The notes under the pieces: generated by a model
The model's input: only the letters and a program-made list of their open reading frames with translations
Told to the model about the DNA's origin: nothing
The model's database searches: none
NCBI GenBank assembly: GCA_021731085.1
Contig: JAKFYB010000001.1
Span: forward strand, 165,266 to 214,050
From: Dehalococcoidia bacterium
GTDB lineage: Bacteria > Chloroflexota > Dehalococcoidia > DSTF01 > JACRBR01
DNA length: 48,785 nt
Direction of reading: 5' to 3'
Program-made: the position numbers and the translations under genes
In this document: positions 18,486 to 20,142 of the stretch, in pieces
How the letters are laid out: the number at the start of each line of letters is the position of its first letter
How positions within the stretch are numbered: the first letter of the stretch is position 1

Positions 18486-19202
18486 TCACGAGAGCGGGGA
18501 CTTCGCGGGCACGCCCGGTCGCCGTGGGTACTCGGATGGGGTTGAAGCCTGCTTAAGCACCGCGATCAGCTTCTGCACCGGTCCCGGAACCTCGAATGGC
18601 ACGACGAAAGCCCGCCCGCCCAGCGTTCGAAGCGCGCCCGCAGCTTCAACCACCTCCGCATCCGCCCGCGAGCCCTTCGGTGTGATAAGGCGGCCGCCCA
18701 CGCGTGCGAACGGCAGCCCCAGTTCGACGAGGGCGGGCAGCGGCGCTACCGCACGGGCCAGAACCAGGTCGAAGTGCTCCCGGAGGGCGGGGTCGTGGGC
18801 TGCAGTCTCCGCACGGCCCGTGATGACGCGCGTGTCGGATAGGCCAAGCTTGTCGACAACAGCCTGCAGAAATGCCGTTTTCTTCGCCGTCGCTTCCAGC
18901 AGGGTCAACTCAATGGCCGGCCAGGCGATCTTGAGTGGAAGCCCGGGGAATCCGGCGCCAGCACCGATGTCAAGCACCCTCGTCTCCGGTCGCAGTATCT
19001 CGCGTTCCCGAAGCGCGGCGCCCAGCGCCAGCGATTCCAGGAAGTGGCGGCGCTGGACAACCTCAACATCTGTGTCGCCCACCAGGTTCATGCGCGATGA
19101 CCAGTCCACGAGCATGTTGTGGTACTGTTGAAAGAGATCCAACTGCACGTCTGTCAGCCGAAGGCCATACGCGGGCGCCTCTCGCGCCAATAATTCGAGC
19201 AT
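18486..19202 (-). CDS. rsmG: 16S rRNA m7G527 methyltransferase
   Basis: RsmG (GidB) methylates N7 of G527 in the 530 loop of 16S rRNA; loss gives low-level streptomycin resistance in many bacteria. It has 238 residues. Helical N-terminus QLDLFQQYHNMLVDWSSRMNLVG, RRHFLESLALG, then SAM motif I VLDIGAGAGFPGLPLKI, LLEATAKKTAFLQAVV, the DLVLARAVAPLPALVEL loop and GGRLITPKGSRADAEV. All blocks are in order. The ATG at 19202 lacks an SD and has TATGCT 6 nt upstream. It is divergent from greA, with overlapping promoter regions. A GGGGCT hairpin without a T-run lies just after the stop. Confidence 0.95.
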   Translation of the reverse strand: MLELLAREAPAYGLRLTDVQLDLFQQYHNMLVDWSSRMNLVGDTDVEVVQRRHFLESLALGAALREREILRPETRVLDIGAGAGFPGLPLKIAWPAIELTLLEATAKKTAFLQAVVDKLGLSDTRVITGRAETAAHDPALREHFDLVLARAVAPLPALVELGLPFARVGGRLITPKGSRADAEVVEAAGALRTLGGRAFVVPFEVPGPVQKLIAVLKQASTPSEYPRRPGVPAKSPLS

Positions 19203-19224: not shown

Positions 19225-19254
19225 TTGACCCTCCCACGGGAGCGAGCCTAGAAT
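19225..19254 (+). promoter_or_regulatory. Sigma-70-type promoter for greA
   Basis: TTGACC (19225-19230) and TAGAAT (19249-19254) are 18 nt apart, each one or two bases from consensus. Transcription would start near 19261, downstream of the ATG at 19256; this supports the ATG at 19274, which has its own SD, as the true start. Confidence 0.65.
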
Positions 19255-19273
19255 CATGACGGAGGGTGTCCTT

Positions 19274-20092
19274 ATGGCGACTGAAACCACCACGGAAACG
19301 GTAGCGCTGCACAAACTCGCGCACGACTACCTCGCAGGTCTCAAGAGCGCAGAGCTTCGCGAAGCAGCACAGCCTGAGATCCTGAAGTTCGTTCGGTGGT
19401 GTGGGCCCGACAAGGATCTCAGCGTCATGCGAGCGCATGAGATTTCGCAGTACGCAGAGAACTTTCCTCCAACGGTTTCAGATGCAGCAAAGCGCGCGGA
19501 TTTTGTCCGCGCGTTTCTCAAGTGGGCGAAGGACAAGGGCCACACGACGGGCAACCTCGGCATCCACCTCCGGGTGCGCAAGGCGACGAAGTCTTCGTCC
19601 GCGGCCCAGACGATCGTCGAGCAGCCGATCTACCTGACGCAAGAGGGTCACGACGCGCTCGTGGAAGAACACGAAGCACTCAAGGCACGCCGCCCGCTAA
19701 TCCAGCAAGACCTCGCCCGCGCGATGGCCGACAAGGACTTCCGCGAGAATGCCCCGCTGGACGCCGCGCGCAACGAGCAGGCACACCTCGAGGCCCGCAT
19801 CCGTGAAATCGACCAGACGCTCCGCCGCGCCGTCGTCCTCGAACACGGTCAGCACCATGCCGGCGAGGCTTCTCAGATCGGCGACACCGTCACGATCAAG
19901 GACCTGCGGACCGGCCTCGAGAAGAGCTACACCCTCGTCAACACCGACGAGATGCGCGCGGGGCAGGGCAAGATTTCGATCGCCTCACCCGTCGGCAAGG
20001 CCGTCTACCAGCATCGCTCCGGCGAAGAAGTCGAAGTGGAGGCGCCTTCCGGCACTTTCCGCGTCCGCATCGAAGCCATCTCCTCCGACTAG
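19274..20092 (+). CDS. greA: GreA/GreB-type transcript cleavage factor with extra N-terminal helical domain
   Basis: A transcription elongation factor that enters the RNA polymerase secondary channel and stimulates cleavage of backtracked RNA. It has 272 residues, against about 158 for classical GreA. Residues 117-188 are the Gre coiled coil (IYLTQEGHDALVEEHEAL) with the acidic tip KDFRENA (Asp155, Glu158) needed to hold the catalytic Mg. Residues 195-272 are the FKBP-like C-terminal domain. Residues 10-104 are an added all-helical domain (EILKFVRWCG, LSVMRAHEISQYAE, RADFVRAFLKWAKDKGHTTGNLGIHLRVRK) that looks like the N-terminal core-binding SAM-like fold of tyrosine recombinases. SD GGAGGG at 19261-19266 selects the ATG at 19274 over the one at 19256. 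A strong terminator follows. Confidence 0.9.
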   Translation: MATETTTETVALHKLAHDYLAGLKSAELREAAQPEILKFVRWCGPDKDLSVMRAHEISQYAENFPPTVSDAAKRADFVRAFLKWAKDKGHTTGNLGIHLRVRKATKSSSAAQTIVEQPIYLTQEGHDALVEEHEALKARRPLIQQDLARAMADKDFRENAPLDAARNEQAHLEARIREIDQTLRRAVVLEHGQHHAGEASQIGDTVTIKDLRTGLEKSYTLVNTDEMRAGQGKISIASPVGKAVYQHRSGEEVEVEAPSGTFRVRIEAISSD

Positions 20093-20118
20093 ATCACAGA
20101 TTGCAACGGCCGACGGAG

Positions 20119-20142
20119 CGCGGGCTTTCAGCCCGCGTTTTT
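20119..20142 (+). terminator. Intrinsic terminator of greA, also a dispersed hairpin copy
   Basis: Perfect 8-bp stem CGCGGGCT-TTC-AGCCCGCG followed by five T, 27 nt after the greA stop. The stem is the same sequence as the hairpins at 40846 and 40884. Confidence 0.85.

Follow-up and report, generated by a model that had tools for sequence, protein, structure and literature searches.

The usual picture of Gre factors is that of small proteins diffusing freely and competing for the channel of RNA polymerase. Their coiled coil is inserted into the secondary channel and places its tip at the active site, whereas the N-terminus lies outside the channel, at the coiled-coil base. GreA and GreB share with the protein described here the coiled coil, the globular domain, and the acidic tip at the D41/E44 positions, whereas the latter adds an N-terminal domain of ~100 residues and a linker. 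Gre homologues not acting as cleavage factors have been described with Gfh1 (Thermus/Deinococcus) and Rv3788 (PMC4598747). The PRK14720/PRK06330 Gre fusions (NF011309, NF004969) likewise carry a long extra region N-terminal to Gre; these models comprise 718-906 positions and match our protein in the Gre part only. On the side of the added domain, the closest described systems are the tyrosine recombinases (lambda Int, XerD, 3nrw), which have in common with the fused protein a helical core-binding fold, profile similarity, and the location of this domain N-terminal to the working module. Recombinase-type DNA-binding parts have been reused for transcription control without recombination in the MrpR/YopR and SroF repressors as well as in the plant ALOG domain (PMC10516654; PMC3537659). 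These proteins regulate particular genes, whereas the protein analyzed here carries such a domain on a general elongation factor.

The window, i.e., the whole analyzed stretch of 48,785 nucleotides from a Dehalococcoidia bacterium, encodes this protein of 272 amino acids in one open frame, reading from ATG 19274 to TAG 20090-20092 on the forward strand (Table 1). The initial annotation had described a promoter, a Shine-Dalgarno sequence, and a terminator flanking one continuous frame, and all three signals were located. The promoter-like site shows 10 out of 12 matches and was found once compared with 0.2 expected occurrences in shuffled sequences, and the stretch forming the terminator reached -26 kcal/mol (z -3.3). 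An alternative ATG at 19256 comes directly 3' of the predicted -10 box, making 19274 the likelier start. An internal start yielding a separate short Gre was considered and rejected, the sole in-frame start-like codon in the linker of the window protein being a GTG at V101 without Shine-Dalgarno sequence; some start-like codon exists within the linker in 35 of 55 members. The rsmG gene is found divergently upstream of the fused greA in 38 of ~75 loci, the window included.

Table 1. Positions of the fused greA gene, its expression signals, encoded domains, and neighbor within the window
Feature	Position	Strand	Basis
Fused greA gene (272 aa + stop)	19274..20092	+	Open frame, Pfam domains, homologues
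Sigma-70-like promoter of fused greA, TTGACC-18-TAGAAT	19225..19254	+	Consensus match only
Shine-Dalgarno GGAGGG, 7 nt 5' of ATG 19274	19261..19266	+	Sequence
Intrinsic terminator (GCGCGGGCTTTCAGCCCGCGTTTTT)	20116..20142	+	GC-rich hairpin followed by T run
Tyrosine-recombinase core-binding (SAM-like) domain, residues 8-100 (almost certain assignment)	19295..19573	+	AF2 models, Foldseek, VIA-align, profiles, hhalign, Pfam scan
Flexible, fast-evolving linker, residues 101-118	19574..19627	+	pLDDT <50 at 107-112; relaxed dN/dS
Gre N-terminal coiled coil, residues 119-188	19628..19837	+	Pfam PF03449 GreA_GreB_N, E 2.4e-18
Catalytic tip D155-F-R-E158, equivalent of E. coli GreA D41/E44	19736..19747	+	Acidic pair conserved in 58/58 fused proteins
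Gre C-terminal globular domain, residues 202-270	19877..20083	+	Pfam PF01272 GreA_GreB, E 1.1e-20
rsmG (gidB), divergent neighbor, not a functional part	18486..19202	-	Marks shared ancestral locus

Residues 119-270 constitute a complete GreA. Both Pfam matches exceed their curated cut-offs (PF03449, 66.5 versus 24.5 bits; PF01272, 73.8 versus 26.9 bits) and the Gre fold was confirmed by Foldseek (E 1.7e-14 to GreA 9a7t_B, TM 0.90 by target). The identity to GreA, GreB, and Gfh1 structures amounts to 22-34% over ~155 columns, and Gfh1 and GreA are matched about equally well by structure, so that fold and sequence cannot separate the two. The NCBI GreA equivalog cut-offs were missed (NF001263, 132.6 versus 145; TIGR01462, 120.5 versus 139); judged by these scores, the fused protein is a divergent Gre clade. 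At the tip, the fused proteins present a clade-specific KDFRENAPL where GreA/GreB have GDLxENAEY. As noted initially, the acidic tip of the window protein is intact (ADKDFRENAP), with both D155 and E158 in place.

For residues 1-118 as a single sequence, nothing significant was found in Pfam and no Phage_int_SAM model gave a match, let alone one above its curated cut-off; Phage_int_SAM_4 was the commonest weak match of the N-terminal domain (18 of 78 members). The relation to recombinases becomes visible with profiles or structure only. The AlphaFold2 model calculated with 55 homologues averaged a pLDDT of 90.7 along the whole chain, with 95-98 for the bulk of the N-terminal domain, the pTM of only 0.61 implying that the relative placement of the two domains is not trustworthy. 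Modelled alone, the domain was predicted less confidently (pLDDT 74 for the whole model, 81-88 in the larger part of the helical core). A Foldseek search with the isolated domain placed tyrosine-recombinase domains on all ranks from 1 to 24 (3nrw, lambda Int, XerD), with TM 0.69/0.73 to 3nrw and a probability of 1.00 for the first seven matches at E-values of only 0.08-1.9. In the VIA-align comparison, every row from 1 to 28 was of recombinase type, and four of these rows were the non-catalytic phage repressors MrpR/YopR and SroF. The alignment with 3nrw (Z 12.7 over 96 residues) is by itself weak for a helical bundle, Z being near 13, and the identification is carried by the uniform match list together with independent sequence evidence. 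A profile of the domain compared with the PDB returned the phage integrase domain 3nrw as best match (E 2e-4), and hhalign against recombinase domains gave 97% at E 8e-11. Of the 17 loci read among the genome-wide profile matches beyond Gre fusions, 16 encode tyrosine recombinases; nine of the 17 were checked with Pfam and the others judged from sequence. The remaining locus (L133, G174:C1, 614-1825) combines Phage_int_SAM_1 with a MerR helix-turn-helix and is devoid of the integrase catalytic domain.

Based on these data, the N-terminal domain is almost certainly homologous to the core-binding domain of tyrosine recombinases and of the same fold. The initial annotation had assigned residues 1-115 to an integrase SAM-like domain, on which fold search and profile comparisons agree, the leading structure matches all being of this type. 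It had also stated that no catalytic recombinase domain follows; the Pfam scan of the window protein bears this out, returning GreA_GreB_N and GreA_GreB as sole domains without PF00589. RsbRD_N, a weak match in 11 of 78 members (best 9e-4), was dismissed as identity of the domain as no such fold appeared among the structure matches listed, and Rad50 and HrcA were dismissed as relatives, their PDB profile matches being weak and partial. Unlike recombinases, the fused proteins have no catalytic domain next to this module and display a conserved GxxR (G44, R47) after the second helix, and they lack the R/K-T...Y motif with which the recombinase DNA-contact helix begins.

A homologue search retrieved 80 loci, more than 70 of them with the N-terminal domain and all from Chloroflexota metagenome-assembled genomes by record titles. 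The fusion is no frame error or sequencing artefact, since it reads as a single open frame on more than 70 separate contigs. Absence from close relatives, which the initial annotation had named as an argument against it, was not observed: counting by eye from tables, with fusion status defined by profile hits and incomplete genomes possibly hiding a copy, the domain occurs in 210 of 245 genomes of the class Dehalococcoidia and in 144 of the 155 high-quality ones. A phylum-wide sample contained it in 23 of 24 class genomes, including that of the window, and 26 of 177 genomes from other Chloroflexota classes encode it as well (E <= 3e-17), there with a Gre match near full length. All 58 fused sequences fell on one side of a branch in a quick tree of the Gre parts (SH-aLRT 99), which gives a single predicted origin of the fusion. 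An apparent fusion in Omnitrophota (L075) was discarded, as the match crosses a stop before an ordinary GreA, and one scan for viral copies of the fusion retrieved none. In a literature search extending mostly to sources other than subscription journals, no publication describing the fusion in title or abstract was found.

Estimates of dN/dS for the N-terminal domain ranged from ~0.03 to 0.32 in 11 of 12 estimable pairs, mostly near the value of the Gre part, with the pair L041/L032 as the exception (~0.75); these ratios are rough, several synonymous distances being near saturation. The linker showed relaxed values. Judged from these ratios, the domain is under purifying selection.

In respect to nucleic-acid binding, the aligned set of 55 sequences splits into two populations. 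In 41 of them, positions 38, 74, 79, 86, 100, and 103 are K/R at a frequency of 90-100%, and the net charge of the domain ranges from 0 to +8, compared with mostly 0 to +11 for recombinase core-binding domains of the same phylum. The other 14 form an acidic clade (support 99) with a net charge of the domain between -3 and -17. Here, basic residues are missing at positions 74, 86, and 103 and remain in 43% at position 38 and in 29% at position 100; positions 47 and 79 stay basic. The domain is nevertheless present in nearly all members of this clade and can thus persist without most of the basic set. Since the acidic clade lost most of these residues, DNA binding by the N-terminal domain, as predicted from sequence, cannot be universal. 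The missing R/K-T...Y motif and a net charge of only 0 to +8 in the other lineages likewise speak against DNA binding. For the role suggested in the initial annotation, binding to DNA or a polymerase surface, the evidence is indirect: the basic set favors a nucleic acid as partner in most lineages, and the acidic clade speaks against it in that one lineage. An acetylated K17 was reported for GreA of Dehalococcoides mccartyi CBDB1 (PMC7918482) and would be located in the N-terminal domain if this GreA were the fused one; it was set aside as evidence on the domain, because the three genomes of genus g2 that were read have N, S, and N at residue 17.

Three relatives possess a fused-type Gre devoid of the N-terminal domain. 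Added to the quick tree, they were placed inside the fused type, which remained together (support 100), and this nesting suggests a secondary loss of the domain. One of them (L265, G268) is nested in the acidic clade with support 100, its N-terminal domain being lost. The placement of another (L272, G375) is uncertain, as BLAST finds it closest to the acidic clade, whereas the quick tree gives it a very long branch in a different place. Both genes still lie head-to-head with rsmG. In the third case (L264, G269; 1468-2013), located outside the acidic clade, a Lys-rich tail (MPKAKKVTKKRPSKK) replaces the domain. Overall, the pattern fits a domain that putatively acts on nucleic acid in most sequences and has lost this role in one clade, the three domain-less cases being few.

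Most genomes of the class also encode a short Gre. New here is the observation that the fused Gre proteins carry both tip acids, a pair that is lost in the co-resident short paralogues. The D/E pair is conserved in all 58 fused proteins examined and was found in none of the 68 short Gre proteins of fusion-bearing genomes (SN, GN, DD, GD, and others). Among 30 short Gre proteins of fusion-free genomes of the phylum, 29 have D or E at the first tip position and E at the second. Fisher's exact test of this pattern gave a p-value of 5e-24, which is far too strong for sequences sharing ancestry; mapped on the tree, the short-with-fusion label requires approximately five changes and thus represents few independent events. 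Short copies in fusion-bearing genomes of other classes mostly show D/D, a milder change. The second, short Gre of the window genome (G000:C18:16084-16302; L180, L089; 159-residue frame) has the tip ELSNTQNNAEY with Asn at both catalytic positions. The ten closed genomes checked in family f2 contain one Gre coiled-coil match each, located in the fused gene. The match to the C-terminal model is single too in eight of these ten and in the closed genome G367 (family f6), and a further match, limited to the C-terminal model, occurs in G074 and G388. In this way, no Gre factor other than the fused protein was found in nine closed genomes. In four class genomes of at least 90% completeness (G178, G243, G259, G298), no Gre factor was found.

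As E. coli GreA D41A/E44Y is impaired in the rescue of arrested complexes (PMC7527559), most short paralogues probably have little cleavage activity. Gfh1 and Rv3788 might be regarded as analogues of the short paralogue; they keep acidic tip residues, whereas the short paralogues lost or changed theirs. Considering the tip pattern of fused and short proteins together with the nine closed genomes in which the fused protein is the sole Gre, the cleavage role appears to have moved to the fusion. A wider reading, according to which cleavage in Dehalococcoidia and some other Chloroflexota was transferred to a DNA-tethered GreA built with a recombinase domain, while the ordinary copy became a secondary-channel factor with an altered tip, possibly competing with the tethered GreA or regulating it, is put forward tentatively, its chances being slightly less than even.

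In the mechanism we propose, the Gre part would enter the secondary channel of RNA polymerase, where D155 and E158 would stimulate cleavage of backtracked RNA. A linker of ~18-25 residues, attached to the coiled-coil base, would hold the core-binding domain outside the channel and allow it to reach nearby DNA or a polymerase surface. In most lineages, it would most likely bind duplex DNA near the polymerase and keep the factor by stalled complexes, and such a tether would enrich the cleavage factor locally around polymerases that are transcribing or have stalled. The fused protein is very probably an active cleavage factor, and a nucleic-acid tether is the slightly favored role of its N-terminal domain. 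For the overall picture of a transcript-cleavage factor tethered to nucleic acid, we consider the chances to be even.

The activity of the Gre part could be questioned because Gfh1 fails to cleave RNA despite having acidic residues at its tip (PMC4598747), so that an intact tip is no proof of cleavage. Together with structure matches of similar quality to Gfh1 and GreA, this would allow the fused protein to be a Gfh1-like inhibitor blocking the secondary channel. We regard such a function as improbable, as every fused protein examined has D and E in the positions known from GreA while the short paralogues lost the pair, and an inhibitor would be odd as the sole Gre found in nine closed genomes. 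Still less probable is an N-terminal domain that represents a functionless remnant of an early gene fusion. Its absence from fused-type Gre in the three sampled genomes would agree with this, whereas purifying selection near the level of the Gre part over many lineages, the wide distribution in the class (210 of 245 genomes), and the retention in small genomes of ~1 Mb argue for a function.

More weight has to be given to a core-binding domain turned protein-binding module, contacting the polymerase or another elongation or repair factor and aiding or regulating Gre docking without DNA binding, although this remains rather unlikely in our assessment. It would account for a domain that is strongly acidic in one clade and yet present in nearly all its members, and for G44 and the basic residues 47 and 79 being kept even there as the other basic positions fade; the linker would also hold the domain close to the polymerase surface. 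Against it stand the basic positions conserved in two helices and the linker in the majority of sequences, as well as the Lys-rich tail taking the place of the domain in L264. We thus continue to prefer the nucleic-acid tether for most lineages.

If this holds true, a class-wide Gre with a putative DNA anchor makes the recruitment of a cleavage factor to DNA or stalled complexes testable, and a recombinase DNA-binding domain would have been absorbed into the core transcription machinery. Much of the significance of the fusion is given by the altered tips of the short paralogues. The fusion Gre seemingly replaces the ordinary factor. Genes annotated as plain greA in Dehalococcoidia need a different reading. 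In small closed f2 genomes, the fused greA adjoins genes resembling S2P-type membrane metalloproteases and in several cases sits between them (L124, L126, L128, L179, L181, L182, L183).
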